A stretch of DNA of 64,000 nt, taken from contig NZ_BCRT01000021.1 of assembly GCF_001552735.1 (NCBI RefSeq), forward strand, positions 310,001-374,000, given 5' to 3'. The position numbers and the translations under genes were made by a program. Below are positions 5,418-48,067 of this stretch, piece by piece (position 1 is the first letter of the stretch; every line of letters starts with the position of its first letter). Source of the stretch: Sanguibacter suarezii NBRC 16159. GTDB taxonomy: Bacteria; Actinomycetota; Actinomycetes; Actinomycetales; Cellulomonadaceae. The notes beneath the pieces are model-generated. The model made no database searches and had not been told where the DNA came from. It saw nothing but the letters and a program-made list of their open reading frames with translations.

Positions 5418-5445
5418 CCATCGGCACGTGCAGTGCGGGTATGAG
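5418..5445 (-). promoter_or_regulatory. Sigma-28-type promoter of fliM
   Basis: On the minus strand CTCAT (5445-5441) is followed after 15 nt by GCCGATGG (5425-5418). It has the same spacing as five other sites in this locus. Predicted initiation about 7 nt downstream falls at 5411, right at the GTG start of fliM. Confidence 0.75.
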
Positions 5446-5583
5446 GAAAAGCACGACGGACGTGCTCTCCACCCCTGACGAGGAGTCGCCGCGTCCGAGA
5501 AGGGACGGGCGGACGGTCGTCAGGTCATGCGGCGCCCTCCATGGCGCCCCGGCTCACCGGCATCCGTGCCGGTCACTGATCAC

Positions 5584-6090
5584 TCACTGAGTGACGTAGT
5601 CGGTCAGGTAGACGCCCATCACCTCGCCGTCGTACAGCTCGGCCAGCTCGTCGGCGAGCTCGATCTTGAGCATCGCCCGGGTGGCGGGGTCGGAGACCTC
5701 TTCGACCGTGCGGCCGGAGAAGAGAGCGATGGCCGCGTCGCGTGCCTTGGCGGCGTCGACCTCGAGCGCCTCGGTGGTCAGCTGCAGGCCGAGGCCCAGG
5801 CGCAGGTAGTGCCCCTGAGCGAGGTTGATGCTCATCGCCTCGACGGCGAGCACCGCACCGGGCTCCGGAGCCGGCTCGGCGGCCTCGGTGTCCTTGGGGG
5901 CGAAGACGAGGAAGTAGGCGGCCGCCGCGATCGCGACGACCAGCACCATGACAATGATCAGCAGCTTCTTGCTCTTGCGGGCTTTCGGCTCGTCGCCCTT
6001 GCCTGCCGCGGCGGGCTCGGTGGGCGCGGCACCGGAACGGGCGCCGATCGGCTTGCGGGGGGCGTTCATCACGCGCTGTTCGATGGGCAT
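5584..6090 (-). CDS. fliL: Flagellar basal-body associated protein FliL
   Basis: FliL is a single-pass inner-membrane protein around the stators that stabilises them under load. The product has a short basic cytoplasmic N-terminus and one transmembrane helix (about residues 45-66). A FliL domain follows with the typical motif FLVFAPKD after the helix, and the C-terminus ends TDYVTQ. I prefer ATG 6090 (168 residues) over TTG 6099, because GAGGAGG lies about 10 nt upstream of the ATG but too close to the TTG. It follows motB directly; 174 bp separate it from fliM. Confidence 0.92.
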   Translation of the reverse strand: MPIEQRVMNAPRKPIGARSGAAPTEPAAAGKGDEPKARKSKKLLIIVMVLVVAIAAAAYFLVFAPKDTEAAEPAPEPGAVLAVEAMSINLAQGHYLRLGLGLQLTTEALEVDAAKARDAAIALFSGRTVEEVSDPATRAMLKIELADELAELYDGEVMGVYLTDYVTQ

Positions 6091-6095
6091 CCTGC

Positions 6096-6971
6096 TCAAC
6101 CCTCCTCAAGGGTAGGAATCAACGGGAGCAGCTCCCGGATACGTTCTGGTTCGTCGCTCAGCACGACGAGGTCGACCCGGCGGTTGCCGGCGAGCCCCTC
6201 GGGAGTCTCGTTGGGCAGGAGGGGGCGGGCCTCCCCGAACCCGACTGCGGCGGCGCGGCTGCCGGGCAGCCCGCCGTTCTCCACCAGCCGGCGCAGCACC
6301 TGCGTCGCGCGGTCGGAGGAGAGCTCCCAGTTGGTCAGGTAGCGCGAGGTGGTGGGTACCGAGTTGGCGTGGCCTTCGACCGAGATCTCGTTCGGCAGGA
6401 CGGTGAGGTACGGGGCGACCGTGTCGATGACGATCTGCGACGTCTCGGTCAGCACCGCGCTCTCAGCGGCGAAGAACACCTCGTCGGTGACCATCCCGAT
6501 GATCAGGCCGCGCTCGTTGATGCGGAACTGCAACGCCCCGTCGAGGCCGCGCTCGGCCAGTGCCGCCTCGATGCGCTCGGCGAGCGCCTCCATGTCCGCG
6601 TACTCCGCGCGTGCCGCGGCGAGGTCTGCCGCCGCGACGGACTCACCCGAGCCGTTCTCCGTGCCGGTCTGGTGCGCCGCACCGGCCAGGGTGGGCACGA
6701 TCCCGTCGATCGTGGGGGCCACGACCTGGGAGCTCGTGTCGTTCATGAGGCCGGCGCCGTCGGTGAGGATCGAGACCTGCGGTGCGCCGAAGCCCGCGGC
6801 CAGGGAGGTGCGCAGCTCGTTGAACTTGTCCACGTCGACCTGGCTCATCGCATAGAGCACGATGAACAGCGCGACGAGGACGGTCATCATGTCGGAGTAG
6901 CTGACGAGCCAGCGTTCCTTGTCATCGTGCTCCTCCTCGACCTCGCGCTTGCGACGTCTGGGGGCACTCAC
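6096..6971 (-). CDS. motB: Flagellar stator protein MotB (start at GTG 6971)
   Basis: MotB is the stator subunit that anchors to peptidoglycan and carries the proton-binding Asp. The frame is open to 7169, but the upstream residues are an Arg/Pro-rich shadow of motA. GTG 6971 overlaps the motA stop (GTGA) and begins VSAPRRRKREVEEE, the usual MotB N-terminus, giving 291 residues. One transmembrane helix follows with the family segment WLVSYSDMMTVLVALFIVLYA; the Asp in SYSDMM corresponds to the conserved proton-carrying residue. The C-terminal OmpA/MotB domain has VEGHANSVPT, SSDRATQVLRRLV and NRRVDLVVL. Confidence 0.95.
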   Translation of the reverse strand: MSAPRRRKREVEEEHDDKERWLVSYSDMMTVLVALFIVLYAMSQVDVDKFNELRTSLAAGFGAPQVSILTDGAGLMNDTSSQVVAPTIDGIVPTLAGAAHQTGTENGSGESVAAADLAAARAEYADMEALAERIEAALAERGLDGALQFRINERGLIIGMVTDEVFFAAESAVLTETSQIVIDTVAPYLTVLPNEISVEGHANSVPTTSRYLTNWELSSDRATQVLRRLVENGGLPGSRAAAVGFGEARPLLPNETPEGLAGNRRVDLVVLSDEPERIRELLPLIPTLEEG

Positions 6972-7738
6972 GCTGCGGCCTTGAGCCGGAGCTCTCCCGC
7001 CGGCACGAGGGACCGCAGCCGCTCCCCGACCAGGCGCGGGTTGGCGCCGGACTGGACCGCGAGCAGACCTTCCAGGACCAGCTCCATCTGGGCGCACTCC
7101 AGGTCGGAGAGCCGCTTGAGCCGGTTGCCGATGGGGAACCACATGACGTTGGCGGAGGCGATGCCCCACAGGGTCGCGACGAAGGCCGCGGCGATCATGT
7201 GCCCCAGCTCGGACGGTTCGGCGAGGTTCTCGAGCACGTGGACGAGGGAGACCACGGTGCCGACGATGCCGATCGTCGGGGCGTAGCCGCCCATGTCGTT
7301 GAAGAACTTGTACGACGTCTTGTCCGACTGCCGCTTGGAGTGGATCTGGTCCTCGAGGATGGTGCGCAGGTCCTCGGGGTCGGTCCCGTCGATCGCGGAG
7401 CGCAGGCCGGACTTGAGGAACTCGTCGTCGATGTCGCGTGCGGCGTCCTCGAGGGCGAGCAGCCCTTCGCGGCGCGCGCGCTCAGCCAGGGAGACGATCG
7501 TGGCGATCGAGTCGTCCGGGGAGGTGGGCTTGCGGGTGAATGCGCCCGGCATGGCCTTGAGCGCGCCGACGGCGTCGCGCAGCGTGCCACCGGCGAGGGT
7601 GGCACCGAAGGTCGCGACGAAGACGAGGATCATCGGTGCGGGGAGCAGCACCGACGTGGGGCTGGCGCCCTCGATGAAGATGGCGGTGATGATCGCGCCG
7701 AAGGCGACGACCAGGCCGATCAGGGTTGCCGGATCCAC
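6968..7738 (-). CDS. motA: Flagellar stator protein MotA
   Basis: MotA is the ion-channel partner of MotB, whose cytoplasmic loop drives FliG. The 256-residue product begins with transmembrane segments (about 4-22 and 30-50), followed by a charged cytoplasmic loop. The conserved PxxG-containing third and fourth helices follow (GGYAPTIGIVGTVVSLVHVL, AAFVATLWGIASANVMWFPI). The GTG start overlaps the flbD stop (TAGTG), and its stop overlaps the motB start, so flbD-motA-motB-fliL form one translationally coupled unit. Confidence 0.96.
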   Translation of the reverse strand: MDPATLIGLVVAFGAIITAIFIEGASPTSVLLPAPMILVFVATFGATLAGGTLRDAVGALKAMPGAFTRKPTSPDDSIATIVSLAERARREGLLALEDAARDIDDEFLKSGLRSAIDGTDPEDLRTILEDQIHSKRQSDKTSYKFFNDMGGYAPTIGIVGTVVSLVHVLENLAEPSELGHMIAAAFVATLWGIASANVMWFPIGNRLKRLSDLECAQMELVLEGLLAVQSGANPRLVGERLRSLVPAGELRLKAAA

Positions 7739-8139
7739 TATGCGTCCTCCTTGGGGGCTGCCGTGACCAGGGACAGCTCCGGCTGGCGGTCACGACGCGA
7801 TGCCGTGTCCTGTGCGGGTGCCTCGTCAGGGTCTGCGGGCAGGCTCGGAGCGCTGCGCAGGTCGGGACGGCCGTCGGCGCGGGCTGAGTCTGCTGACTCG
7901 CGCTGGATGTCCTGAGCGCGAGCGATCATCCGGGAACGGTGCTCGTTGACGAGCTCGATCACCTGGTACATCGACTCCTGGACGATGTACTTGGTGCCGT
8001 CGACCAACGTCAAGATCGTGTCGGGCGCGCTGTCGATGCGCTGCACGAGGTCAGGGTTGACCGCGAAGGGTGGGCCGTTGAGGCGCGTCACGACTATCAC
8101 TTGTACATCCGTCCGTGGATACTTCTCCGGCCCGTCCAT
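7738..8139 (-). CDS. flbD: FlbD-family flagellar protein (start 8139 or 8100)
   Basis: FlbD proteins of Gram-positives and spirochaetes are small proteins found before motA-motB; they are unrelated to the Caulobacter regulator of the same name. The core is VTRLNGPPFAVNPDLVQRID, DTILTLVDGTKYIVQES and VIELVNEHR, matching the family's full usual length of about 70. A Ser/Ala/Asp-rich tail of about 60 residues is extra. The open frame begins at 8208, upstream of the predicted transcription start (about 8148), so it cannot be the true start. ATG 8139 would give a 9-nt leader; GTG 8100 (VIVVTRLNG) matches the family N-terminus best. Confidence 0.85.
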   Translation of the reverse strand: MDGPEKYPRTDVQVIVVTRLNGPPFAVNPDLVQRIDSAPDTILTLVDGTKYIVQESMYQVIELVNEHRSRMIARAQDIQRESADSARADGRPDLRSAPSLPADPDEAPAQDTASRRDRQPELSLVTAAPKEDA

Positions 8140-8154
8140 GAACCGTCTGCCTAC

Positions 8155-8182
8155 CCTTCGGCTGTCGACGCGCTCATATGAG
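8155..8182 (-). promoter_or_regulatory. Sigma-28-type promoter of flbD-motA-motB-fliL
   Basis: On the minus strand CTCAT (8182-8178), 15 nt, then GCCGAAGG (8162-8155). The -10 has one difference from the GCCGATRG seen at fliC and fliS. The -35 sits in a perfect palindrome CTCATATGAG and is preceded by AAGTT, as at the fliC promoter. Confidence 0.65.
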
Positions 8183-8229
8183 AACTTCCCCGCCCCTCGC
8201 TCCCCCACCCCCCAAACCCGTGAACACCC

Positions 8230-8295
8230 CCGCCGAACTCGTGAGCCAGGCCGGTTCCGCGGGGGGCGGACGGGCCTGGCGCACGAGTTCGGCGG
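8230..8295. repeat. Long palindromic intergenic repeat, copy 1
   Basis: The 21-bp arms (8230-8250 and 8275-8295) pair with a single mismatch around a 24-nt spacer. The arm core is CGAACTCGTGAGCCAGG against CCTGGCGCACGAGTTCG. A related unit with the same mismatch lies at 61974-62091. It sits between flgE and the flbD promoter and may also act as a transcription terminator or mRNA-stabilising hairpin. Confidence 0.8.
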
Positions 8296-8316
8296 AGTGA
8301 CTGCGCCGGGGGGGTG

Positions 8317-8357
8317 GGGTCAGGGTGGGTCAGAGGGAGGGTCAGAGGGTGGGTCAG
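8317..8357. repeat. Short tandem GGGTCAG repeat at the flgE stop
   Basis: GGGTCAG occurs at 8317, 8327, 8339 and 8351, a 10-12 bp periodicity. The last copy contains the reverse complement of the flgE stop codon, so contraction or expansion could alter the end of flgE. Confidence 0.7.
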
Positions 8358-9520
8358 CGCTTGAGGTTGACGAGCTCCTGAAGGAGCTCGTCGGAGGTGG
8401 TGATGACGCGGGAGTTCGCCTGGAAACCGCGCTGGGCGATGATGAGGTTGGTGAACTCCGAGGACAGGTCCACGTTGGACATCTCCAGCGCGCCGCCGAC
8501 CAGCGCACCGCGCCCACCGGCCCCTGCCGTCCCGATCTGCGGGTCGCCGGAGTTGACCGAGGTCGTGTAGAGCGAACCACCGGCCTTCTCCAGGCCGACC
8601 GGGTTGGCGAAGGTGCTCAGCGCGATCCGGCCCACGGCAGACTTCATGCCGTTGGAGAAGGCCCCGATGATCGTGCCGTCCGGGTTGATGGTGAAGGACT
8701 GCAGCGAGCCGGCGGCCTGGCCGTCCTTGGTGGCCACCTCGACCGTGGAGAGCTTGGCGAAGCCGGTCACGGTGGACAGGTCCACGGTGACTCCACCGAT
8801 GGCCACGGACGTGGTGCCGGTCATGACGCCGGCCGCGTCGAAGGTGACGGGCTGGGTGGCCCCGCCGCCGGAGGGGGTCATGTCCCAGCCGGTCGCGGTC
8901 TTGGCGAAGGTCAGCGAGATGGTCTGGGAGTTGCCGAGGTTGTCGAAGACCTCGACGTCGCGGTTGAGGACTGTCCCCAGGGCCGCGTCGGAGGGCAGGT
9001 TGCCGTCGAAGGTGACGGTGGTGGTGGCCTGGGCGGGGTTGAGTGCGGTGACCGGCAGGCGCAGGTCGGTCAGCGGACCGTTGGGGTCCACCACACCGTT
9101 GACCGCGGCCCAGCCCTGGACCAGCGCACCTTCACCGGTCACGAGGTTGCCGTTGGCGTCGAAGTCGAAGGCACCGGACCGCGTGAAGAAGTCCTGACCG
9201 TTCTTGCTCACGACGAAGAACCCGTCACCGGAGATCATCATGTCGGTGCTGCGGTTGGTCACCTGAGCGGCGCCCTGCTGGAAGTTCGTCGTGATGCCGG
9301 CGACCTGCACGCCGAGTCCGACCTGCGCCGGGTTGGTGCCACCGACCCCGCCCTGTGCGCCACCGGCGTTGGTGAGCACCTGGGACAGGGTGTCCTTGAA
9401 CTGGATCTGGGAGGCCTTGAAGCCCGTGGTGTTGACGTTGGCGATGTTGTTGCCGGTGACGTCGAGCATGGTCTGGTGGGCGCGGAGGCCGGAGATGCCG
9501 GAGAACAGTGAGCGGAGCAT
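8354..9520 (-). CDS. flgE: Flagellar hook protein FlgE
   Basis: FlgE polymerises into the hook, the universal joint between rod and filament. The 388-residue product has the signature rod/hook N-terminus (LFSGISGLRAHQTMLDVTGN then NIANVNTTGFK) and C-terminus (SNVDLSSEFTNLIIAQRGFQ then ANSRVITTSDELLQELVNL), with a variable D1-D2 body between. It follows flgD after 104 bp that hold short tandem repeats. It is the only hook/rod protein of this size in the window; no flgF or flgG is present. Confidence 0.96.
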   Translation of the reverse strand: MLRSLFSGISGLRAHQTMLDVTGNNIANVNTTGFKASQIQFKDTLSQVLTNAGGAQGGVGGTNPAQVGLGVQVAGITTNFQQGAAQVTNRSTDMMISGDGFFVVSKNGQDFFTRSGAFDFDANGNLVTGEGALVQGWAAVNGVVDPNGPLTDLRLPVTALNPAQATTTVTFDGNLPSDAALGTVLNRDVEVFDNLGNSQTISLTFAKTATGWDMTPSGGGATQPVTFDAAGVMTGTTSVAIGGVTVDLSTVTGFAKLSTVEVATKDGQAAGSLQSFTINPDGTIIGAFSNGMKSAVGRIALSTFANPVGLEKAGGSLYTTSVNSGDPQIGTAGAGGRGALVGGALEMSNVDLSSEFTNLIIAQRGFQANSRVITTSDELLQELVNLKR

Positions 9521-9564
9521 GTGGAGGGTCCCTTCAGGTGGAGCAGGCGGTGGTGCGCTGAGTG

Positions 9565-9615
9565 GTGCGGTGCTGTGCGTGCGGTGCTGTGCGAGCTGAG
9601 CTGAGCTGAGCTGAG
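9565..9615. repeat. Tandem repeats in the flgD-flgE intergenic region
   Basis: Two perfect 14-bp copies of GTGCGGTGCTGTGC (9565-9578, 9579-9592) run directly into 4.6 copies of the 5-mer GAGCT (9593-9615). They lie in the 5' leader of flgE, about 45 bp from its start codon, so copy-number change could tune hook-protein translation. Confidence 0.8.
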
Positions 9616-9624
9616 GCGCGGCGG

Positions 9625-10116
9625 TCAGGCCGGGTCGGCGTCGGGATCGACGGGGGCGACGTCGCCGGGCGCGCCGGCCGGGCGCACGGAGGCGACCGCG
9701 TCGAGGGTGATCTCCTTGCCACCCACGGTGACCAGGGGCACGGAGTACTTGTAGGAGACCGATGTCGCGATCCCCTCGACCGTTGCACCGCCCTCACCGA
9801 TGTAGCTGACCTGCTTGCCGATGAGGCTCGAGGCGGTGTCACGCATCTGCAGCGCGAAGCTCTCGCCCATGGTGGTGTTGAGGGAGGTGAGCTGTTCCAT
9901 GCTGGCCAGCTGGGTGGTCTGGGCCATCATCTCGTTGGTGTCCATCGGAGAACTGGGGTCCTGGTACTTGAGCTGGGCGACGAGCAGCGTCAGGAAGGTC
10001 TCGGAGTCGAGGGACTTCTTGGCGTTGCTGATCCCCGCCGAGCCGGTGTACAGCCCGGTCGCGTTCTTGGTCGACGTCGTGTCGACCGGCGTGGTCATCG
10101 TGGTGTCGATGGGCAT
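9625..10116 (-). CDS. flgD: Flagellar hook assembly scaffold FlgD
   Basis: FlgD is the temporary cap needed to build the hook from FlgE. The 163-residue protein carries the family N-terminal block (LDSETFLTLLVAQLKYQDPS, SPMDTNEMMAQTTQLASMEQ). A short beta-rich C-terminal region (LIGKQVSYIG...) follows, ending in an Asp/Pro/Ala tail. The Ig-like FlgD C-terminal domains of enteric FlgD are truncated, which is common in Gram-positives. It sits between fliK and flgE. Confidence 0.94.
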   Translation of the reverse strand: MPIDTTMTTPVDTTSTKNATGLYTGSAGISNAKKSLDSETFLTLLVAQLKYQDPSSPMDTNEMMAQTTQLASMEQLTSLNTTMGESFALQMRDTASSLIGKQVSYIGEGGATVEGIATSVSYKYSVPLVTVGGKEITLDAVASVRPAGAPGDVAPVDPDADPA

Positions 10117-10125
10117 GTGCGGTCC

Positions 10126-11556
10126 TTAGGTGAGGATGTCGACGCCGTGGGCGCCCGAGGAGGTGGGGGTGACGGGGGCCGTCGGTACGGCGAGGGGCTC
10201 GCGGGTCGTCGTGGCTGCTGCGGGTCCAGACCGGGCGCGCCCGGAGCCGTCCCCGTTCCAGCCGAGGTCGGCGGCGGCGCCCTGCCCAGCCCGTCCCCCC
10301 GTACCAGAGTCCGCGCCGAGGGACAGGGACGCGTTCATCCCGGTGCCGGCGAGGTCGCGGCGCAGGTCGGTGAGCAGGTTCCGCAGGCCTTCCCGAGCGG
10401 CGTCGGTGGCGCCGACGAGCTCGATGCGGATGCCCTCAGCCCCGATGTGCGCGCGGACCTGGACCGGACCGAGGTTCTCCGGGGTGACCTTGAGCGTGAG
10501 CACGTGCTCCCCGGGGGCCGCGGTGCGCAGCGCGAGCACAGGTCCGCGGACCTGCTCGGCCAACGATGCCTGCGCCGTCGGGCCGGTGGCGGCCGTGGCC
10601 GTCGCCCGCTCGACGCCGGTCAGCCCGGACAGCGTCTGGGCGAAGGCTGCGGCGTGCGCGGCCGGCGCGGGGCCCGCGGCGGGGGCGGCGGCCTCCGCCA
10701 CCGGCACGTGCCCGGCACCGCCCGCGGTGCCACCCGAGGTCGCGTCGCCGGAGGCGGCGCCCTGGGCGGTCGTGACCGCGGCGAGCAGCACGGGGGCGGC
10801 GCCGGCGGCCGGCACCGGGGTGGTGGGGACGAGCGGGAGCACGGGCAAGCTCTCGCCGGGGCGGGTCGTCGCCTGTGCGGTGGCACCCGCCGCCGGCTGA
10901 TCGGTCGAGGCCAGCACCACGGCGGGCGTCGCCGTCGGCCCGGCGGCTGCTGCGCCGCCACCCGGGGCGCCGAGCGTCGGTTGAGCGAGGGCCGCCACGC
11001 CGGGCACGGGCTGCCCGACGACGGCCGCCGCCGCGGACGGCGCCCCACCCTGAGCGGGTGCGGCGCCGGTGAGCGCGGCGTCTACGGCTGACGCAGGAGT
11101 CGTGGCGCTGAGGTCTCCCGCACCGGTGACCGCCGCTGCCTCGCCGGGTACGCCGAGAATGCCCACGAGACCCGCCGGGACGGTGAGCACCGGTTGCACC
11201 GGCGTCTCCCCCGCGACGGCTGCGACTGCGTCGGCGGCCTCTGCGGCGGTCGTCGTCTGGGTGAGCGCGGTGTCGCCTGGACGGTCGGTCCCCCGGGTCG
11301 AACCAGCCCGGTCGCTCTGTGCTGCGCGGTCGACCCGGCGGGCGTCCAGACGGCCGGTCCGCGCGACGTCGCTGCGGTCGTCCCGGGTGCTCGGACGGTC
11401 CTCGGCGCGCGTGGTCGACGGTGACCTGTCACCTGTCTCCTTGCGCAGCGCACGCGCGAAGTCGTCCCCCGAGCGGGGTGCGGCCGACCGCTGGGCGCCC
11501 TGGACCGCGGGGGCGGTCTGCGGGGCGCGCGGGGCGGCGGGGATGAGCTGGCTCAT
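10126..11556 (-). CDS. fliK: Flagellar hook-length control protein FliK
   Basis: FliK is the secreted ruler that measures the hook and triggers the FlhB specificity switch. The 476-residue product has a long low-complexity Ala/Pro/Thr/Gly-rich N-terminal ruler region. A Flg_hook domain begins near residue 340 (PGEHVLTLKVTPENLGPVQV, then IELVGATDAAREGLRNLLTD). That motif and the position next to flgD and flgE make the call safe. The ATG overlaps the stop of the P60 gene by 4 bp. Confidence 0.93.
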   Translation of the reverse strand: MSQLIPAAPRAPQTAPAVQGAQRSAAPRSGDDFARALRKETGDRSPSTTRAEDRPSTRDDRSDVARTGRLDARRVDRAAQSDRAGSTRGTDRPGDTALTQTTTAAEAADAVAAVAGETPVQPVLTVPAGLVGILGVPGEAAAVTGAGDLSATTPASAVDAALTGAAPAQGGAPSAAAAVVGQPVPGVAALAQPTLGAPGGGAAAAGPTATPAVVLASTDQPAAGATAQATTRPGESLPVLPLVPTTPVPAAGAAPVLLAAVTTAQGAASGDATSGGTAGGAGHVPVAEAAAPAAGPAPAAHAAAFAQTLSGLTGVERATATAATGPTAQASLAEQVRGPVLALRTAAPGEHVLTLKVTPENLGPVQVRAHIGAEGIRIELVGATDAAREGLRNLLTDLRRDLAGTGMNASLSLGADSGTGGRAGQGAAADLGWNGDGSGRARSGPAAATTTREPLAVPTAPVTPTSSGAHGVDILT

Positions 11557-12281
11557 GCGGCGTCTCCAAGTCGAAGGGTGAGGGCGGAGCGGTGGGCTGC
11601 GCTCGTGGCGAGCGCCTGCTCCAGTGCGGCAGCCGCCGAGGTCGCGGCGGTGGCTGTCGTGTCGGTCGATCCGGTCCCCAGGACCCGTCGGATGGTCGTC
11701 GGGGTCTCGTAGACGTCCCGCTGACGCACCACGTCACCGGGCTTGGGGGCGTCGATCATCCGGCCACCACCGACGTAGATCCCGATGTGCGAGCCACCAC
11801 CGAAGACCAGCAGGTCGCCCGGGACCGCCTCGGCCAGGGAGGCCACCTCGGTCCCCTGGGTCATCTGGTCCCGGGCGACCCGTGGCATGTCCACACCGAG
11901 GGCGCCGAGCGACCGCTGGACAAGACCGGAGCAGTCCAGCCCGGCCGTCGTCGTGCCGCCCAGGACGTAGGGCACGCCGAGGTAGGTGCGCGCCTGCGCC
12001 ACGAGGTCTGCGCCCGTCGCAGGCCGCGCGGACGCCGCCTCGATGAGCGCGTCCACGCCGGTCGCGCTCGTGAGGTCGGCCTCGGCCAGCACCGTGGCGA
12101 AGTCCGCCGTGCCCGACGCCGCAGCCACGGCGGACGCTCCACCGGGCGCCGACGCGCCGGTCATCGCGGTCCCCATCACTCCGGAGGCCGCTGCCGGTCC
12201 GGAGACGGACGCTGCGAGGGCGGTCATCCGCTCCTCGATCTGACCGATCCGGCCCGCGATCGCGGCCATCCCGGCGGTCAC
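11553..12281 (-). CDS. NlpC/P60 (C40) peptidoglycan hydrolase in the flagellar operon
   Basis: This is a cell-wall endopeptidase domain of the NlpC/P60 family. The core at about residues 90-190 has LGGTTTAGLDCSGLVQRSL (catalytic Cys), SHIGIYVGGGRMID (catalytic His) and DAPKPGD. The frame is open to 12539, but GTG 12281 overlaps the fliJ stop (GTGA) and begins VTAGMAAIAGRIGQ, giving 242 residues. No signal peptide or transmembrane segment precedes the domain. Instead there is a 90-residue Ala/Gly/Ser-rich region. Position between fliJ and fliK suggests a FlgJ-like role in opening the wall for the rod, with export through the flagellar apparatus; both are inference. Confidence 0.88.
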   Translation of the reverse strand: MTAGMAAIAGRIGQIEERMTALAASVSGPAAASGVMGTAMTGASAPGGASAVAAASGTADFATVLAEADLTSATGVDALIEAASARPATGADLVAQARTYLGVPYVLGGTTTAGLDCSGLVQRSLGALGVDMPRVARDQMTQGTEVASLAEAVPGDLLVFGGGSHIGIYVGGGRMIDAPKPGDVVRQRDVYETPTTIRRVLGTGSTDTTATAATSAAAALEQALATSAAHRSALTLRLGDAA

Positions 12282-12715
12282 AGCTCCACCTCCAGGGTGT
12301 CGCGGGCAGGCCCGCGGGAGGCGATCTCGTCGAGCACGATCTGCTCCTGACGCAGGTCTTCGATCATCTCGGCCTCCTCGTGCCGCTCGGCGAGCTTCTC
12401 CAGAGGCACCGCGCGGCGGCGGGCATCCGCCCAGGCCATCTCCCGCTGGTGCACCTCGGTGGCGGCCATCGACGACGCCGCGGCGGACTCGACCGCGAGG
12501 CTGCGCAGGGACGCGCGGATCGCCACGGCGGACCGCCACGCGCCGACGTCGGTCGCGGGGTCGAAGTCGTGGTCGGCGAGGGCGTCGTCGGACCGGGACT
12601 GGCGCACGAGCGCGGCCCGGCGCGCGGCGTTGGCGGTGGCGAGGTCAGCGGCCGCCTGGTCCTCCTGGAGCCGGCGCAGCCGCAGCAGCCCGGCCAGGCG
12701 GTAGGGGCGGCTCAT
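12278..12715 (-). CDS. fliJ: Flagellar export protein FliJ
   Basis: FliJ is the central coiled-coil stalk of the FliI ATPase and helps recycle export chaperones. The 145-residue product is almost entirely helical and charged, starts MSRPYRLAGLLRLRRLQEDQ as FliJ proteins do, and has no catalytic motif. Sequence conservation of FliJ is low, so placement directly after fliI with a 4-bp overlap is a main part of the evidence. Confidence 0.87.
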   Translation of the reverse strand: MSRPYRLAGLLRLRRLQEDQAAADLATANAARRAALVRQSRSDDALADHDFDPATDVGAWRSAVAIRASLRSLAVESAAASSMAATEVHQREMAWADARRRAVPLEKLAERHEEAEMIEDLRQEQIVLDEIASRGPARDTLEVEL

Positions 12716-17665: not shown

Positions 17666-18069
17666 CAGTTGCGTCCGATCTGGAGTGCTGCCTCGTAGGT
17701 CGCCTTGGCCCGGTCGACGACGGCGGCGCTGGCCTGGTAGCCGCGCTGCGCCATGATCATCTGGGACATCTGGCTGCCCATGTCGATGTCTGGGTACTTC
17801 ACGTAGCCCTCGGCGTCGGCGAGGGGGTGCTCGGGCTCGTAGACCATGCGCCCTTCGGCGCTGCCCAGCTCGATGCCCTTGACCTGGACGCCCTGGCCGT
17901 TCTCGGGATAGCCGATGGCCGTGGCCACGACGTAGCGCGCCTGGAAGGCGGCGCCGTCGGTCGCGGTGACGGTGTTCATGTTCGCGAGGTTGTCGCTCAC
18001 CGCGTCGAGCCACTTGCGGTTGACGGTCATCCCGGTGCTGGCGATCCCGATCGCGCCGAAGGTGCCCAT
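17665..18069 (-). CDS. flgC: Flagellar proximal rod protein FlgC
   Basis: A rod subunit of 134 residues. It has the rod/hook N-terminal motif (GIASTGMTVNRKWLDAVSDN, LANMNT) and the FlgC C-terminus (YVKYPDIDMGSQMSQMIMAQ, RGYQASAAVVDRAK). It lies between flgB and fliE with one-base or near-zero junctions on both sides. Confidence 0.96.
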   Translation of the reverse strand: MGTFGAIGIASTGMTVNRKWLDAVSDNLANMNTVTATDGAAFQARYVVATAIGYPENGQGVQVKGIELGSAEGRMVYEPEHPLADAEGYVKYPDIDMGSQMSQMIMAQRGYQASAAVVDRAKATYEAALQIGRN

Positions 18070-18410
18070 CAGTTCGTCCTCATGGCCGTGCGAAGGGAGG
18101 AGAAGGTGCCGTCCACCGCTTGTGTGGCCAGCTGATAACGCAGGTTCGTGTCGACATTGAGCAGCGTCTCTGCGTCGAGGTTGACGTTGTTGCCGTCCAA
18201 CCGGGTGGGCTCCAGGGACCGAGCCTCGCTCGCGGTGACTGCGCCGTCGCCGCGCCGGACTGCCGAGGCGAGCTCGCTCTCGAAGGAGACGCGCCCGGCG
18301 AGGTAGTTCGGGGTGTTGATGTTGGCGACGTTGTTCGCGATCACCCGCTGGCGGAGCGCGAGACCGTCCAGGGCGCTGTTGAGCGCCACATAGGTCACAG
18401 AATCGAACAC
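18069..18410 (-). CDS. flgB: Flagellar proximal rod protein FlgB
   Basis: A rod subunit. I place the start at GTG 18410 (VFDSVTYVALNSALDGL), giving 113 residues, because GGGGA lies 5 nt upstream and the FlgB family starts here. The codon at 18521 would add a 37-residue extension and would lie upstream of the predicted transcription start. The motif RQRVIANNVANINTPNYLAG and the C-terminal LRYQLATQAVDGTFSSLRTA are typical. It is the first gene of the long rod-ring-export operon and has its own sigma-28-type promoter. Confidence 0.94.
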   Translation of the reverse strand: MFDSVTYVALNSALDGLALRQRVIANNVANINTPNYLAGRVSFESELASAVRRGDGAVTASEARSLEPTRLDGNNVNLDAETLLNVDTNLRYQLATQAVDGTFSSLRTAMRTN

Positions 18411-18484
18411 GGCTGTCCCCTGAGTAGTGGGTTGGAACGGCCGATCCGTGGCCTGAGTACGCGAGCCGTCCTGGCTCACTCTGA

Positions 18485-18512
18485 CTATCGGTTGCCTGGT
18501 GGGAGCTATGAG
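18485..18512 (-). promoter_or_regulatory. Sigma-28-type promoter of the flgB operon
   Basis: On the minus strand CTCAT (18512-18508), 15 nt, then ACCGATAG (18492-18485). Predicted initiation is near 18478, giving about 68 nt of leader before flgB. Confidence 0.75.
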
Positions 18513-18549
18513 GACTTTCATCCGTCCGCTCTTGTCAGGACCGGGGGTG

Positions 18550-18936
18550 TCACCCCAGGGTGTCGAGGTAGACCGCCTGCGGGGCGTTGCGCCGGCGCAG
18601 GGTGTCAGCCACCCGCAGGTGCGCGCGAGTGGTCACCAACGTCTCGTTGAGGGTCGCGGTGAGCACGCGCTGCTGGTTGACGACGGCCTCTGCGCGTCCG
18701 CGCAGGGCGTCGGGCAGCGGGCCGAGGTCGGTCGGGGGGACCCACTGCGCTGCGAGGAGCAGGTCTGCGACGGCCGGAGCGTCGTCGCCCGGGGAGTCCT
18801 GAGCGGTGACCGTCGGCGGCCGGACGAGGAGCTGGTGCGTGCGCTGGATGTCAGTCTCGAGCTCGTCGAGAACAGCCTCCCAGCGAGCGGTCGCGGTCAC
18901 GGTCTCAGCCGACACCGAGGACACCACCGACGCCAA
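18550..18936 (-). CDS. FliT-like hypothetical protein downstream of fliS
   Basis: A small, mostly helical protein of up to 128 residues with no recognisable catalytic motif. Position directly after fliS, and size, suggest a FliT-type chaperone for FliD or other axial proteins, but I see no sequence signature that proves it. ATG 18936 overlaps fliS by 32 bp; GTG 18915 (VSAETVTATAR) or GTG 18900 are alternative starts with less overlap. It ends 38 bp before the flgB promoter. Confidence 0.7.
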   Translation of the reverse strand: MASVVSSVSAETVTATARWEAVLDELETDIQRTHQLLVRPPTVTAQDSPGDDAPAVADLLLAAQWVPPTDLGPLPDALRGRAEAVVNQQRVLTATLNETLVTTRAHLRVADTLRRRNAPQAVYLDTLG

Positions 18937-19375
18937 CCATGGTGGCGTTGGCCGAGGAACGGTTCGCCGCGGACGAGCGCGCAGCGGACGGGGTCAGGCT
19001 GGCGGCCGCCTCGTGCCAGGCCGCACGCAGCGGCTCGACCGTCGCACGGCAGGCCGCGGTGACCTGCGGGTCACGAGTGATGTTGGCGCGGATGAGCTCA
19101 CCGAGGAGGTGGGTGTACAGAGCGTGCAGCCCCGGCCCCCCGTCCCACGCGGTCACGTCGAGGGTGACCAAGAGCTCGGCAACGATGTCCTGAGCGTGGG
19201 TGAGCTGGGTGTTGGACTCCACGAGGTCACCAGCCAGCTGGGCCTTGCCCGCGCGGTCCAGGTCGAGGACCAGCCGGTCGTAGAGCATCGTCAGCAGACG
19301 AGCCGGGCTCGAGCTGAGGACGGTGTCGTTGAGAAACTGCGCACGCTGGGCGTCGGAGCTCATCAGGTTGCTCAT
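18905..19375 (-). CDS. fliS: Flagellin chaperone FliS
   Basis: FliS binds the C-terminus of newly made flagellin and prevents premature polymerisation. The start is ATG 19375 (MSNLMSSDAQRAQFLND); the frame upstream to 19462 overlaps the fliD 3' end and its promoter. The product has FLNDTVLSSSPARLLTMLYD, LDLDRAG and GLHALYTHLLGELIRANI, all family features, and a Ser/Ala/Gly-rich tail. The promoter -10 ends at 19383, so transcription is expected to begin at or within 1-2 nt of the ATG, making fliS essentially leaderless. MSSD (19363) is a possible alternative start. Confidence 0.9.
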   Translation of the reverse strand: MSNLMSSDAQRAQFLNDTVLSSSPARLLTMLYDRLVLDLDRAGKAQLAGDLVESNTQLTHAQDIVAELLVTLDVTAWDGGPGLHALYTHLLGELIRANITRDPQVTAACRATVEPLRAAWHEAAASLTPSAARSSAANRSSANATMVGVGGVLGVG

Positions 19376-19382
19376 GACGGAC

Positions 19383-19410
19383 CTATCGGCTCCGGGTGAG
19401 CGGGTATGAG
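19383..19410 (-). promoter_or_regulatory. Sigma-28-type promoter of fliS
   Basis: On the minus strand CTCAT (19410-19406), 15 nt, then GCCGATAG (19390-19383). It lies wholly between the fliD stop and the fliS ATG. Confidence 0.8.
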
Positions 19411-19419
19411 GACTCTGGA

Positions 19420-20805
19420 TCAGCTCGACGACGAGAGGCCGGCGAGCTGGCCGGCGAGCCACGAGGACTGCGCGTTGAGGCCGCTGAGAGTGACCTCGAG
19501 GGCTGAGTACGTCTTCTGCAGGCCTTCCTTGCGCACTGCGAGACGCCGGTCCCAGTCCTCGACCTGCGAGGACAGGTTCTTGCTGAAGCTCTCCTGGTTG
19601 ACGATCTTCTGGGTGAGGCTGCCGTCGATCTTGTCCGAGGCGCGCGTCGCGACCTCGGCGACGCGCTCGGCCACGCCTGAGACGATCCGCTGGACCTTGG
19701 CCGGGTCAGCGGCCATGGCGGCGGTGAACTTAGCCTCATCGAAGGTGAAGGTCCCGTCCTTGCCGATGACGATCCCGACCTCGGAGGGCGAGAACCCGTC
19801 GACGGGATACGAGACAGCAGAGACGATCGCCTGGTTGAGCGACCGGGTCGCGCTGTCACCACCCAGCACACCAGCGGTGATGACGGTCCCGCCATCAGAG
19901 GCTGTGGTCGTGGTGGTCGCGGTGCGGGACTTGATCTCGGACAGCACCACGCCCACCGCACCGACGAGGTCGGAGGCGAGCTTCTTCAGGGCCGTGTTGT
20001 CGCGGGCCACCGTCACGGTGACAGGCGTCGGCTCGAGGGCGGAGACGGTGATGCTCACGCCGCCGAGCACGTCGGAGAAGGTGTTGGTCGCGGAGGTCAC
20101 CGGCTGGTTGCCCCACAGGGTGATCTGCGCGTCGCCGGCCGCCACGATCGCGCCGGCACGGCCGATGAGCGGAGCCGGTGCCGTACCCGCCTGGATGTCC
20201 GCCTCGGCTACGGTGCCCACGTGCAGATCGAAGGCGGCGACCGCGCCGGTGTTCTTCGCGGTGAGCTGCAGGCGGGACTCGGTCTCGGAGATCTTCACCA
20301 CGCTCGCGGTGATGCCCGTGTCGGCCGTGTTGAGCTTGGCGGCGAAGCCCGCGAGGTCGGTGACGTCCGTGAGGTCGACGACGGTCGCCTTGGCGGTCGC
20401 GCCGCTGCCTGTGGCGAGCGTGACGCTGGACGGGAGCGGATCGCCGAGCAGACTCTCCAGGGTGGTGACGGTGCCGCTGACGGAGGTCTGCGCGGAGGCC
20501 AGCTTGTCGACGCTGAAGCTCAGCGAGGAGGCCTGCGCCCCTGAGGTGGCCGTCGCGGTCACCGACTTCCCCGAGCTCGTAGCGGTCACGGCGTCCCAGG
20601 AGGTGGGCTTCGCCGCAGCCTTGGCCGCATCGGCGAGGGAGGCCACCCGGGTGTTGAGGCCTTGGAGAGCGGTGATGAAGGACTGGGTGCTGGTGACCTT
20701 CGACTTGAGCAGGGTCTGGGGCATCGCCTCGACCTGCATGAGCTGGGTGATCAGCGCCGTGGTGTCCAGCCCGCTGACCAGTCCGTCGATGCCCATCCCT
20801 GCCAT
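19420..20805 (-). CDS. fliD: Flagellar filament cap protein FliD
   Basis: FliD is the cap under which flagellin subunits fold onto the growing filament. I start it at ATG 20805 (MAGMGIDGLVSGLDTTALIT), the usual FliD N-terminus, giving 461 residues; the codon at 20844 adds an unrelated 13-residue leader. The N-terminal coiled-coil (IDGLVSGLDTTALITQLMQV) and C-terminal region (SFSKNLSSQVEDWDRRLAVR, KEGLQKTYSALEVTLSGLNA) are conserved, with a Thr/Ala-rich variable middle. It follows fliC after a strong hairpin, so it is probably expressed by read-through or its own promoter; none was obvious. Confidence 0.95.
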   Translation of the reverse strand: MAGMGIDGLVSGLDTTALITQLMQVEAMPQTLLKSKVTSTQSFITALQGLNTRVASLADAAKAAAKPTSWDAVTATSSGKSVTATATSGAQASSLSFSVDKLASAQTSVSGTVTTLESLLGDPLPSSVTLATGSGATAKATVVDLTDVTDLAGFAAKLNTADTGITASVVKISETESRLQLTAKNTGAVAAFDLHVGTVAEADIQAGTAPAPLIGRAGAIVAAGDAQITLWGNQPVTSATNTFSDVLGGVSITVSALEPTPVTVTVARDNTALKKLASDLVGAVGVVLSEIKSRTATTTTTASDGGTVITAGVLGGDSATRSLNQAIVSAVSYPVDGFSPSEVGIVIGKDGTFTFDEAKFTAAMAADPAKVQRIVSGVAERVAEVATRASDKIDGSLTQKIVNQESFSKNLSSQVEDWDRRLAVRKEGLQKTYSALEVTLSGLNAQSSWLAGQLAGLSSSS

Positions 20806-20880
20806 GAGGTGCTCCTGTCTCCAGTGTCGTCGTGCATGCCCCACGGCGGGAGCAGCATGGTCGTGCCGTGCCGCGAAAGC

Positions 20881-20923
20881 CGACCGGCGGTGGCGGGACT
20901 GCCTGTCCCCCCACCGCCGGTCG
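20881..20923 (-). terminator. Hairpin terminator after fliC
   Basis: Arms CGACCGGCGGTGG (20881-20893) and CCACCGCCGGTCG (20911-20923) pair perfectly. The stem continues inside through GGGAC/GTCCC around a 5-nt loop. It lies 73 bp after the fliC stop. There is no long T-run, as is common in GC-rich genomes. It could cap highly expressed flagellin mRNA while allowing limited transcription of fliD. Confidence 0.75.
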
Positions 20924-20995
20924 ATGCTGCGGTCGTTCAGTCGAACTGTGATGCAGTGGCGCGGTGGTGCTTCGACTCAGTCAGTGCTGACCGGA

Positions 20996-22210
20996 TCAAC
21001 GCAGGAGCGAGAGCACGCCCTGGGGGATCTGGTTGGCCTGCGCGAGCATCGCCGTGCCAGCCTGCGAGAGGATCTGGGCACGGGTGAAGCTGACCATCTC
21101 GGAGGCCATGTCCGTGTCGCGGATGCGCGACTCGGAAGCCGAGAGGTTCTCGACCGCGACGTTGACATTCTTGATGGTGTGCTCGAGGCGGTTCTGCACG
21201 GCACCCAGGCCTGCACGAGCGGTCGAAACCTTCTCGATCTGAGCGTCGATGAGCTTGATCGAGTCCTGCGCGTTGGCGGCGGAGTCGAACTTGAGACCCG
21301 AACCCGCGCTGGTGCCAGGAGCGGTGGCAGCGGCGATACCGACACCCGGAGCCGTGATAGCAACCTTGCCACCGTCGTTGGCCTTCACGGTGATCCCGGT
21401 ACCGGCGCCGTTAGCGTCCTTGTTCACCGAGACCGTGAAGTTGGCTGCGAAGTTCGCGTCAGAACGGAGAGCGTTCGCGTAGTCCTCCACGCTCGTGACG
21501 GTCGTGTTGGGCACGGTACCGACCTTGCCGAAGTCCAGCGTCCCGGTAGTGACCGTGGTGGCTGTCGCAGGATCGGTGGGAAGGGGGCCGCCCTTGGTGC
21601 TGGTGAAGGTCGCTGCACCAGTGGTGAGTGCACTCACTGCAGCAATGTCGAAGGAGGTACCCGTGGCGGCGGTGGAGCCGCTCTTGAGTGCAGTCGCAAC
21701 CCCAGTGACACTTGCACCGGACAGGTCGACCGTGATCTGGCTGTTGCTGTCTGCGCCAGCGCCGACCTGGAAGGTCAGCTTGGTCTGGGAACCATCGAGC
21801 AGGTTGGTTCCGTTGAAGTTCGTCGACTTGCCGATGCGGTCCAGCTCGGAGACGAGGCTGTCGGACTCGGTCTGGATGTTCTCGCGAGCCTTGGTGTTGT
21901 TCGAGTCGTTGGCGCCCTGGACGGCCAGGTCACGCACGCGCTGCAGGATCGCGTGGACCTCGGTGAGTGCGCCTTCAGCGGTCTGCACCACGGAGATGCC
22001 GTCCTGGGCGTTGCGGGCGGCGACCTTGAGGCCACCGACCTGTGAGCGCAGGCCCTCGGAGATCGCGAGGCCGGCAGCGTCGTCGGCTGCACGGTTGATG
22101 CGGAAACCGGAGGAGAGCTTCTCGAGCGACTTGCTCAGGTCGTTCTGGGTGTTGGAGAGGTTGCGGTAGGAGTTGACTGCCGCGATGTTCTGGTTGATCG
22201 AGAGACCCAT
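20996..22210 (-). CDS. fliC: Flagellin FliC
   Basis: The filament subunit, 404 residues. The conserved N-terminal D0/D1 begins GLSINQNIAAVNSYRNLSNT and has SSGFRINRAADDAAGLAISE. The C-terminal D1/D0 has ESRIRDTDMASEMVSFTRAQ and ILSQAGTAMLAQANQIPQGV, ending LSLLR. A Thr/Ala/Gly-rich variable middle (about 180-320) lies between. ATG 22210 is preceded by GGAAGAAG; the longer frame to 22267 adds a non-conserved leader and would start at the predicted transcription start. Gene order fliA-fliC-fliD-fliS is typical. Confidence 0.97.
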   Translation of the reverse strand: MGLSINQNIAAVNSYRNLSNTQNDLSKSLEKLSSGFRINRAADDAAGLAISEGLRSQVGGLKVAARNAQDGISVVQTAEGALTEVHAILQRVRDLAVQGANDSNNTKARENIQTESDSLVSELDRIGKSTNFNGTNLLDGSQTKLTFQVGAGADSNSQITVDLSGASVTGVATALKSGSTAATGTSFDIAAVSALTTGAATFTSTKGGPLPTDPATATTVTTGTLDFGKVGTVPNTTVTSVEDYANALRSDANFAANFTVSVNKDANGAGTGITVKANDGGKVAITAPGVGIAAATAPGTSAGSGLKFDSAANAQDSIKLIDAQIEKVSTARAGLGAVQNRLEHTIKNVNVAVENLSASESRIRDTDMASEMVSFTRAQILSQAGTAMLAQANQIPQGVLSLLR

Positions 22211-22272
22211 GATGATCTTCTTCCGTGAAAGGGGGCCGAACAGAGGCGCCCGTCCGTGGGCTGCCACCCGTC

Positions 22273-22300
22273 CTATCGGCCCCGCCCACGTTCACATGAG
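22273..22300 (-). promoter_or_regulatory. Sigma-28-type promoter of fliC
   Basis: On the minus strand CTCAT (22300-22296), 15 nt, then GCCGATAG (22280-22273), giving about 56 nt of leader. Just upstream are two direct repeats of GAAAAGTTCT at a 13-bp period, AT-rich for this genome, possibly an UP element or an activator site. Confidence 0.82.
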
Positions 22301-22360
22301 AACTTTTCTGAAGAACTTTTCCGCAGAGGTTCTTCGGTGCCTCACACGCTCTAGGGGGCG

Positions 22361-23245
22361 TCAGCCGACGGCGATGAGCCCGGGCTGCCCGCCCGCCTCG
22401 ACAGCCCCGTCGAGGGCCGCACCCGCGACCGCCATCCCGGCGATCGCGACACTGGATGCGTTGCGGGTGGCGCGCTCCGCGATCGCGGCGAAGTACGTCT
22501 CGCGGCGCCGCTGAGCCACACCTTCGGGCTGAGCCGCCGCAGGGACCATCGCGGGGTCGAGGTGGGTGTTGAGCCCGTCCCGCAGGAGCAGCATCGCCTC
22601 CGCACGTAGCTGGCTAACCCGAGACTGCGTGACGCCCAGGTCCTTGGCGATATCTGTCACCGACCGGTCGTGGAAGAACACCTGCTCGACGACGACCCGC
22701 AGCCGCTCCGGAAGTGTCTCGACTGCGGCGCGCAGGTAGCGCAGACGCTCGTCGACGATCACGGTCTCCTCCGGTCCCACCTCGCGGGCCGGCAGAACCT
22801 CGGCAAGCGCGCCGTCGTAGCCCTCGAGGCTGAGCACCCGGGTCGCAGCGTGCTCGCGAGCGCTGTCCACCTCGCTGACGTCGACGCCGAGAGCCGCAGC
22901 CAGCTCGGTGCGGGTCGGGGTCCGGCCGAGGTCGGCAGTGAGGTCGTCGGCGACGGAGGTCAGGCGCCGGGCCCGCTGGCGAGCACCTCGGGTGACCCAG
23001 TCCATCGACCGGAGCTCATCGACCATGGCGCCCTTGATCCGGATCGCGGCATAGCGGTTGAACGGCACACCGGTGGTCACGTCGTACGCTCGCGCAGCTT
23101 GGACCAGCGCCAACGCTCCCGCCGACGCCAGCTCGTCCCGAGAGACATGGCTGGGGACGCGCATGAGCAGCTCGCTGACGTGGTACCCGATCAGCGGGAG
23201 GTTCTGGGTGACCAGAGATGCCTGGTCTGCGTCCAAGGGCTGCAT
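22361..23245 (-). CDS. fliA: RNA polymerase sigma factor FliA/WhiG (sigma-28) family
   Basis: This is the probable master sigma factor for the motility promoters seen in this window. Sigma region 2 (DELASAGALALVQAARAYDV, FNRYAAIRIKGAMVDELRSM, DWVTRGARQRAR), region 3 (LGRTPTRTELAAALGVDVSE) and the region 4 helix-turn-helix (SVTDIAKDLGVTQSRVSQLR) are all present. A 45-residue Ala-rich extension follows region 4, longer than usual. I use ATG 23245 (294 residues) because a promoter -10 ends at 23253; TTG 23254 is the other option. No flgM anti-sigma gene is in the window. Confidence 0.93.
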   Translation of the reverse strand: MQPLDADQASLVTQNLPLIGYHVSELLMRVPSHVSRDELASAGALALVQAARAYDVTTGVPFNRYAAIRIKGAMVDELRSMDWVTRGARQRARRLTSVADDLTADLGRTPTRTELAAALGVDVSEVDSAREHAATRVLSLEGYDGALAEVLPAREVGPEETVIVDERLRYLRAAVETLPERLRVVVEQVFFHDRSVTDIAKDLGVTQSRVSQLRAEAMLLLRDGLNTHLDPAMVPAAAQPEGVAQRRRETYFAAIAERATRNASSVAIAGMAVAGAALDGAVEAGGQPGLIAVG

Positions 23246-23252
23246 GTCAACC

Positions 23253-23281
23253 AATATCGGGGGTACGGCGGATTAGTTCAA
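23253..23281 (-). promoter_or_regulatory. Housekeeping-type promoter of fliA
   Basis: On the minus strand TTGAAC (23281-23276), a 17-nt spacer, then GATATT (23258-23253). Expected initiation falls at ATG 23245, so the sigma-factor mRNA may be leaderless. Confidence 0.55.
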
Positions 23282-23524
23282 CCTTGAGCAATCGTTTTCA
23301 CCCGCTCCACAAAGTGATCACGCAGTCTTGGCAATGGGGAGAAGTCCCCATGGGGCCTCGTCTCGCCTGACAGCGGTTTCATGCCATCCCTCGCTGACCT
23401 GCGTAAACGCTTACCAACCCGGTCAGCCGACCGCGAGGCGGACAATGGGCATGGCCACCACCTCGTCTACGCCGCGCACTCATGGGATCCTGGCCGCCCA
23501 GGTGACATCAGCATGCCCGAACAC
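23282..23524. other. Divergent intergenic region between fliA and flgN
   Basis: No convincing gene. The 320-bp gap between fliA and flgN holds the fliA promoter at one end and the flgN promoter at the other. Short open frames here have no homology that I recognise. This is the natural place for regulators of the flagellar hierarchy to bind. Confidence 0.6.
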
Positions 23525-23552
23525 CTCATGGCCGCAGCGGATCTACCGATGT
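23525..23552 (+). promoter_or_regulatory. Sigma-28-type promoter of flgN-flgK-flgL-fliW
   Basis: CTCAT (23525-23529), 15 nt, then ACCGATGT (23545-23552), the same spacing as the minus-strand sites. Predicted start near 23559 gives about 46 nt of leader to flgN. Confidence 0.65.
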
Positions 23553-48011: not shown

Positions 48012-48067
48012 CGCCGTGCAGATCGGCTCGACCCCGAACTCGTCCTTGGTGGCCTCGATGTAGGCGA

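Follow-up and report, generated by a model that had tools for sequence, protein, structure and literature searches.

How does RNA polymerase find flagellar promoters that lack the textbook −35 element of the sigma-28 factor? The question is raised by a 64,000-nucleotide (nt) stretch of Sanguibacter suarezii NBRC 16159 (contig NZ_BCRT01000021.1, positions 310,001 to 374,000; here, the window), whose flagellar cluster encodes the sigma factor FliA and carries six copies of the motif CTCAT-N15-RCCGAWRK upstream of flagellar operons. The classical sigma-28/WhiG consensus, as given in the available text of PMC8325347, combines TAAA at −35 with GCCGATAA at −10. Taken together, the data described below are best explained by the six sites being FliA-regulon promoters with an actinobacterial CTCA −35 element in a Sanguibacter-like actinobacterium, a reading to which we assign a probability of roughly 0.87.

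All six 28-bp footprints listed in an earlier note on this DNA are present letter for letter, each with exactly 15 bases between CTCAT and a GCCGATAA-like −10 box, as that note had claimed. Five putative FliA-type promoters lie on the minus strand: those of fliC (22273..22300; CTCAT-N15-GCCGATAG), fliS (19383..19410; CTCAT-N15-GCCGATAG), the flgB operon (18485..18512; CTCAT-N15-ACCGATAG), the fliM operon (5418..5445; CTCAT-N15-GCCGATGG), and the flbD-motAB operon (8155..8182; CTCAT-N15-GCCGAAGG). The sixth, upstream of flgN-flgK-flgL-fliW (23525..23552; CTCAT-N15-ACCGATGT), is on the plus strand. The window contains no other exact match (mean of 0.02 matches per dinucleotide shuffle; 0 of 100 shuffles with at least 6), and the 15 spacer bases are different at each of the six sites. 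Some sites fall inside mechanically called open reading frames (ORFs) whose likely starts are downstream; read by eye, the likely true start codons are at 22210 (fliC), 19375 (fliS), 18410 (flgB), 8100 (flbD), 5409 (fliM), and 23605 (flgN).

The −35 element is indeed altered, although the TCAT/CTCAT proposed in the earlier note required adjustment: the conserved core is CTCA, and the T at the fifth base is lineage specific (T in all six window sites, T or C elsewhere in the genus). Compared with TAAA, CTCA retains the T and the second A in register, has C in place of the first A, gains a C in front, and leaves the last A free. TAAA itself was tried as the −35 element of the flagellar cluster and rejected; of its three window matches (spacing, 13 to 18), one separates fliA from flgN (23404, plus strand) and the others are at 46440 and 54332, and none coincides with the six promoters.

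Across the genome (3.80 Mb, 31 contigs), the strict pattern occurs 11 times, including the 6 window sites, compared with 2 occurrences of the backwards pattern. Among the remaining five matches, that at C16:330440 is some 50 bp upstream of a chemoreceptor gene, three (on C4, on C5, and at C21:245155) are inside ORFs, and the context of C13:237795 is ambiguous. Loosening the −10 box raises the count to 15 (4 backwards); three of the four additional matches fall within ORFs, and the fourth (C6:48448) is ambiguous. CTCA-type sites outside the window were also observed before cheA (C21:306271), whose product has Hpt and kinase dimer domains, and before two of seven chemoreceptor genes (C21:299746 and C16:330440), a count that leaves out loose-pattern matches inside chemoreceptor and other reading frames.

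Variation in the fifth base and in the −10 tail brings the strict pattern near chance outside the genus; we therefore quantified conservation at orthologous genes with the looser pattern CTCA-N15..17-CCGA[AT], in which N16 after CTCA equals N15 after CTCAT. Among 16 genomes of the order, this pattern was found in 54 of 91 flagellar upstream regions. At N16 alone, 49 of 91 flagellar upstreams carried it compared with 2 of 228 control upstreams, and both control matches are the fliC promoter, reached via a mis-assigned flgL. By gene, sites at N15 to N17 (N16 only in parentheses) were present before fliC in 9/16 genomes (8/16), flgB in 9/16 (7/16), fliS in 4/16 (4/16), flgN in 11/16 (10/16), fliM in 10/13 (10/13), and flbD in 11/14 (10/14). 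All four genomes with a fliS site belong to the same genus. The strict pattern is found 4 to 11 times per genome in six same-genus genomes and 0 to 2 times in eight genomes of the family without a FliA ortholog; at least one match was seen in 125 of 200 family genomes, among the matches listed.

In 61 FliA loci of named records, CTCA-N16-CCGA[AT] was present in 34, preceding fliC in 26 of 34, flgB in 16 of 22, flgN in 14 of 35, and fliS in 0 of 30 cases (these loci did not reach fliM or flbD), with stray sites before fliD (1/32), fliF (1/20), flgK (1/34), and fliA (3/61). TAAA and the reversed word each scored 0 before every flagellar gene set in these loci. The site precedes fliC in, among other genera, Kineococcus, Nocardioides, Dactylosporangium, and Planomonospora. 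A de novo dyad search of 63 FliA loci that assumed only CCGA[TA] returned CTCA, 21 bases upstream, as its top word (CTCA-N16-CCGA[TA]; 61 seen, 1.2 expected). Going by their titles, most of the 63 rows (L096 to L158) come from Actinomycetes; L142 carries the title Thermoleophilia and L146 only "uncultured bacterium". L096 duplicates G002 and L104 duplicates G017; both were dropped from the tree test and from the leader-hairpin, named-locus, and fliA-upstream counts but retained in the dyad search and the 63-row site and residue counts, which may thus hold a few repeats. Judged by these counts, CTCA is a usual −35 form in flagellated Actinomycetes and no peculiarity of this genome. Searches for Actinomycete flagellar regulons with the textbook TAAA consensus would overlook these promoters.

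The window FliA (22361..23254, minus strand; ORF as listed, with the true start probably an ATG three codons in) has sigma70 regions 2, 3, and 4 by Pfam, and among solved structures it is most similar to chains of the WhiG type and of FliA, placing it in the sigma-28 family. The nearest are 6pfv, which we take to be Rubrobacter WhiG, and 6pmi, whose FliA chain is presumably that of Escherichia coli. The earlier note proposed that region 4 had changed its specificity. Aligned over the recognition helix of region 4.2 (GVTQSRVSQLRAEA; 22595..22636, minus strand), the window FliA has VTQSRVSQLR where E. coli FliA has VGESRVSQLH and the WhiG chain has VTESRVSQIH, so that Q210 and R217 of the window FliA correspond to E and H in E. 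coli. By analogy with sigma-70 structures, residues at both positions would touch the −35 element. At position 217, R is found in 63 of 63 rows from L096 to L158 and in 15 of the 16 order genomes (K in the other), compared with H in 10 of 11 nonactinobacterial rows (L in L166); L171 (Acidimicrobiales) also has H. At position 210, most Actinomycete rows have E; a few have D, R, or P. R217 and Q210 probably account for part of the −35 change; both replacements, of H by R and of E by Q, fit the shift, and neither is proven. A change of region 4 specificity, as the earlier note proposed, is plausible, but these residues do not establish its cause, because R also occurs in more basal actinobacterial groups in which no CTCA signal was found. 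They offer a small case for testing how a sigma factor changes its −35 specificity.

The residue at 210 also appears to track the base after CTCA. With Q the fifth base is T at 38 sites, C at 19, G at 8, and A at 3; with E it is G at 19, A at 12, and C at 2. The rarer residues gave G 6, A 1, and C 1 (D), A 2 and C 2 (R), and A 1 (P). We hypothesize that the fifth base goes with Q or E at 210, an association that would represent about one evolutionary event.

Several observations weigh against the reading that these are FliA promoters with a CTCA element specified by region 4. R at 217 is shared by basal actinobacterial FliA groups in which no CTCA signal was found. Among 20 basal-set FliA stretches, 15 have R (L215 to L229 except L219, and L231), 1 has C (L219), 3 have H (L230, L232, and L234), and 1 has N (L233); L159, L161, and L162 likewise have R. 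The 35 basal-set flagellar upstreams yielded 20 words resembling the −10 box but none at −35 that recurred four times, and the H-type outgroup in the dyad search comprised only 7 upstreams, too few to reveal TAAA. R217 as the sole cause of CTCA is thus unsupported. On a tree built without the columns in question, residue 210 and the fifth base change three times each and independent pairs are not significant; in addition, three Cellulomonas rows with Q have G at 6 of 8 sites. Conservation is also incomplete: only 9 of the 16 order genomes have the fliC site, 9 the flgB site, and 4 the fliS site, flagellated family genomes outside the genus (G008, G010, G013, G017, and G018) hold merely 1 to 4 strict matches, and an N16 site of any kind occurs in only 34 of 61 named loci, partly because many of these contain no flagellar operons. 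Finally, we infer the transcription starts from sequence, and some sites could be read by another sigma factor.

Basal FliA proteins that carry this R but show no CTCA signal would also fit FliA promoters in which CTCA is read by something other than region 4, such as an activator at −35 or the polymerase alpha subunit touching A-rich bases, so that region 4 keeps its specificity. A-rich bases do recur upstream, at −26/−25 of CTCA sites. However, the distance to the −10 box is nearly fixed (N16 in 114 of 129 CTCA sites of relatives scanned at N15 to N17; N17 in 8 and N15 in 7), as expected for contact by sigma, and no activator site conserved alongside was found, though no systematic search was made. 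We consider a different reader of CTCA unlikely.

Because early, switch, stator, filament, and hook-associated operons all carry the site (flgB, fliM, flbD-motAB, fliC/fliS, and flgN-flgK, respectively), the hierarchy appears flat. An enteric-type arrangement, in which early structural genes lie outside the FliA regulon, does not describe this cluster, since flgB, fliM, and flbD carry the site. The flatter hierarchy suggested in the earlier note thus holds for the distribution of sites over early and late operons (flgB, fliM, flbD, fliC, fliS, and flgN) but not as a peculiarity: a lack of hierarchical coordination, with 33 flagellar genes transcribed simultaneously, has already been reported for Actinoplanes missouriensis (PMC8306008, citing Jang 2016, in the text available). 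Flat hierarchy is therefore already known in kind; the additions made here are hairpins in the leaders of early operons and a two-step picture of the −35 change. Hierarchy would be restored if the regulon were only partly FliA dependent and flgB, fliM, and flbD were mainly under another sigma factor sharing the promoter form. The genome has 23 region-4 matches, and Actinoplanes has three FliA-family sigma factors (PMC13293333, as far as its accessible text goes). Nonetheless, only one close FliA was found in this genome (the other three matches to FliA are 29 to 35% identical over all or part of it), and the motif is alike at early and late genes, making a second sigma factor quite improbable. 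That the sites are chance matches or repeat copies without a promoter role, for which nothing but the common motif was found to speak, is scarcely credible given their dissimilar spacers, the chance level of 0.02, and their retention at orthologous genes.

The FlgM profile PF04316 matched 0 of 29 genomes; because it matched only 3 of 14 control genomes, a diverged FlgM is possible. The portions available of two published accounts describe later actinobacterial classes (PMC10746217) and Kineococcus (PMC2587704) as lacking FlgM. How is assembly order maintained in a flat flagellar programme that has no recognizable FlgM? Conserved CsrA-type hairpins on both early and late operons offer an answer that can be tested directly.

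Such hairpins were found in three leaders, all on the minus strand. Near the 5′ end of the fliC leader lies GCCC-ACGGAC-GGGC (22248..22261), present in the minimum-energy fold, followed by a second ANGGA over the Shine-Dalgarno sequence (22222..22226); this leader thus has both an ANGGA in a hairpin loop and a second site at the ribosome-binding site, as CsrA-controlled leaders do. The flgB leader has two hairpins, GAGCC-AGGAC-GGCTC (18463..18477; in the minimum-energy fold), with a GGA loop in the window and ANGGA in many relatives, and GGCC-ACGGATC-GGCC (18439..18453). The latter and the flbD-leader hairpin, CGGTTC-ATGGAC-GGGCCG (8128..8145), are absent from the minimum-energy folds of their 84-nt stretches. 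The leader loops fit the CANGGANG hexaloop, named as the high-affinity form in the available part of PMC4894983. Rfam at gathering scores gave no match within the flagellar cluster.

Across relatives, ANGGA hairpins occur right after the −10 box in 25/25 flgB, 11/11 flbD, and 27/35 fliC leaders, compared with 0/26 for flgN, 0/10 for fliM, 0/4 for fliS, 0/3 for others, and 1/8 for fliA. The total of 64/122 far exceeds dinucleotide shuffles (mean, 2.1; maximum, 7; 200 rounds), control upstreams (3/199), and six other loop words (1 to 4). Pairing is also conserved: paired cells number 170/204 for fliC (74 to 102 in slid controls), 63/66 for flbD (27 to 46), and 94/126 (39 to 49) and 78/100 (27 to 59) for the two flgB hairpins. 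Pairs changed on both sides were 4/6 for fliC (slid, 2 to 4), 4/6 for flbD (1 to 3), and 2/6 (3 to 5) and 0/4 (1) for flgB; this count alone gives no support to the flgB hairpins, since slid controls were higher. A csrA gene is present in this genome (C21:306423-306581), in all 16 genomes with a FliA ortholog (this one included), and in 0 of 13 without. CsrA is predicted to bind the fliC, flgB, and flbD leaders. Among the publications listed, we found no description of hairpins before flgB or flbD.

Two operons of the regulon appear to have almost no leader. For fliM, a GTG lies 8 nt after the −10 box in the window and 6 to 8 nt after it in 10/10 order genomes with the site; for fliS, an ATG lies 7 nt after the box, and a start codon is found at 6 to 8 nt in 4/4 genomes with the site. 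At this distance from the −10 box, the fliM and fliS messages are probably leaderless messages inside a leadered regulon.

Control of fliA itself appears to differ among genera. No CTCA site was found in the 150 bases upstream of fliA in six same-genus genomes. The notion that FliA sites before fliA are absent in general was discarded, since CTCA-N17-NCCGA precedes fliA in 15 of 77 upstreams of that length, from 9 of 61 named loci (L099, L100, L102, L103, L105, L110, L112, L113, and L117) and 6 of 16 order genomes (G010, G013, G019, G022, G025, and G027); the site is absent in this genus and part of the others. In controls, other spacings from 12 to 20 together gave 1 match, the reversed word gave 1 at N17 and 5 over all spacings, and upstreams of seven control genes gave 2 of 158. 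Many of these sites have a GTG a few bases after the box. The N17 variant suggests self-activation of fliA in those genera.

Upstream of fliA in the window is a palindrome, ATGGGGA-CTTC-TCCCCAT (23334..23351, minus strand), a candidate operator through which fliA itself may be controlled. The six same-genus genomes all have it, as ATGGGKASTTCTCCCCAT, roughly 90 bp upstream of fliA. Allowing at most one mismatch to ATGGGGASTTCTCCCCAT, we found 5 copies in this genome and at least one in 15 of the 29 genomes scanned, irrespective of whether they are flagellated (backwards control, 0). The form ATGGGGA-STTC-TCCCCAT accounts for the other copies in this genome (G000; C1:184748, C4:269529, C21:164865, and C23:20016) and occurs in L101, L107, L259, L252, and L263. 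Elsewhere the palindrome lies before flgB (two Georgenia loci and G017) and before other genes; in two genomes it precedes genes for WXG100-like (type VII secretion) proteins (calls on 50-residue pieces, one above and one just below the Pfam cutoff). It is likely a shared operator.

We propose that RNA polymerase carrying the window FliA would read a conventional sigma-28 −10 box (GCCGAT-like) together with a CTCA −35 element one base upstream of the TAAA register. With the site present at rod, switch, stator, filament, hook-associated, and chemotaxis operons, FliA would activate the bulk of the flagellum at a single level. In this genus fliA, having no CTCA site, would presumably be under control from above. 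Timing among the cotranscribed operons may then be tuned on the mRNA, with flgB, flbD, and fliC leaders bearing CsrA-type hairpins and fliM and fliS mRNAs starting almost at the start codon. A broader model, in which the order of transcription was lost and CsrA and FliW instead set the order of assembly at the RNA level, alongside a two-step −35 change, is offered tentatively; we put it at somewhat less than even odds. Under this model, one CTCA-reading FliA would start the operons at once in FlgM-lacking flagellated Actinomycetes, FliW would free or hold CsrA according to unexported flagellin, and CsrA would gate the leaders of flgB (rod, with tandem hairpins), flbD-motAB (stator), and fliC (flagellin). 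The fliM and fliS messages, being leaderless, and the flgN leader, which has no hairpin, would escape CsrA. The first −35 step would be H to R in region 4.2, giving CTCA; the second, E to Q in one Micrococcales-type lineage, would move the fifth base from purine towards pyrimidine.

The surrounding cluster is compact, with Pfam support for FliA, FliC, FliS, FliM, FlbD, FlgN, FlgK, FliJ, FliK, and FliW (fliW, 26414..26800, plus strand; E = 2.5e-22); FlgB has a general rod-protein domain only, and its name rests on cluster position. FliA orthologs in five same-genus genomes are 81 to 85% identical, and the nearest record in the named scan, from which records very near the window may be omitted, is Sanguibacter suaedae (FliA 83% identical). 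Gene order is mostly kept across 15 relatives, with insertions in some (e.g., G010, G025, and G027); the cluster is covered only in part in G008, G010, G025, and G027. Between fliJ and fliK lies a gene for an NlpC/P60 domain protein (11553-12539, minus strand), perhaps a wall hydrolase for rod passage. Elsewhere in the window (47997-48110, minus strand), Rfam matched the ALIL pseudoknot with 79.4 bits; this element acts as a frameshift signal in insertion sequences.

Compared with classical sigma-28/WhiG promoters, the window sites share the −10 box, the spacing, and two −35 bases in register (T and the second A) but have CTCA in place of TAAA. Flagellar promoters of Actinoplanes missouriensis were reportedly described by Jang et al. 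(J Bacteriol, 2016) as CTCA-N15-17-GCCGAA, and in the window CTCA-N15-17-GCCGA likewise precedes flagellar operons, early ones included. Actinoplanes differs in belonging to another order, in making zoospores, and in having E at position 210 in the loci scanned, compared with Q and a fifth base T in the window. As predicted for the window, its flagellar genes are transcribed without hierarchy in the account of PMC8306008, and the text available of PMC8325347 has them directed by WhiG-like sigma factors; the Rubrobacter WhiG regulon described there uses TAAA, with mapped starts. The motility island of Kineococcus radiotolerans resembles this cluster in gene order and in having neither a FlgM homolog nor a known master regulator, with csrA inside the island and a CsrA site predicted over the fliC Shine-Dalgarno sequence; the accessible portion of that account (PMC2587704) does not use the word promoter or name hairpins before flgB or flbD. 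CsrA-FliW-flagellin control, with FliW as a protein antagonist of CsrA, is known from Bacillus (as a published abstract has it) and Campylobacter (PMC4894983, in the part available). Like those systems, the window has ANGGA in flagellin-leader hairpin loops, a second site over the ribosome-binding site, and fliW in the genome; unlike them, its predicted hairpins also head the flgB rod and flbD-motAB operons, right after the FliA promoter.

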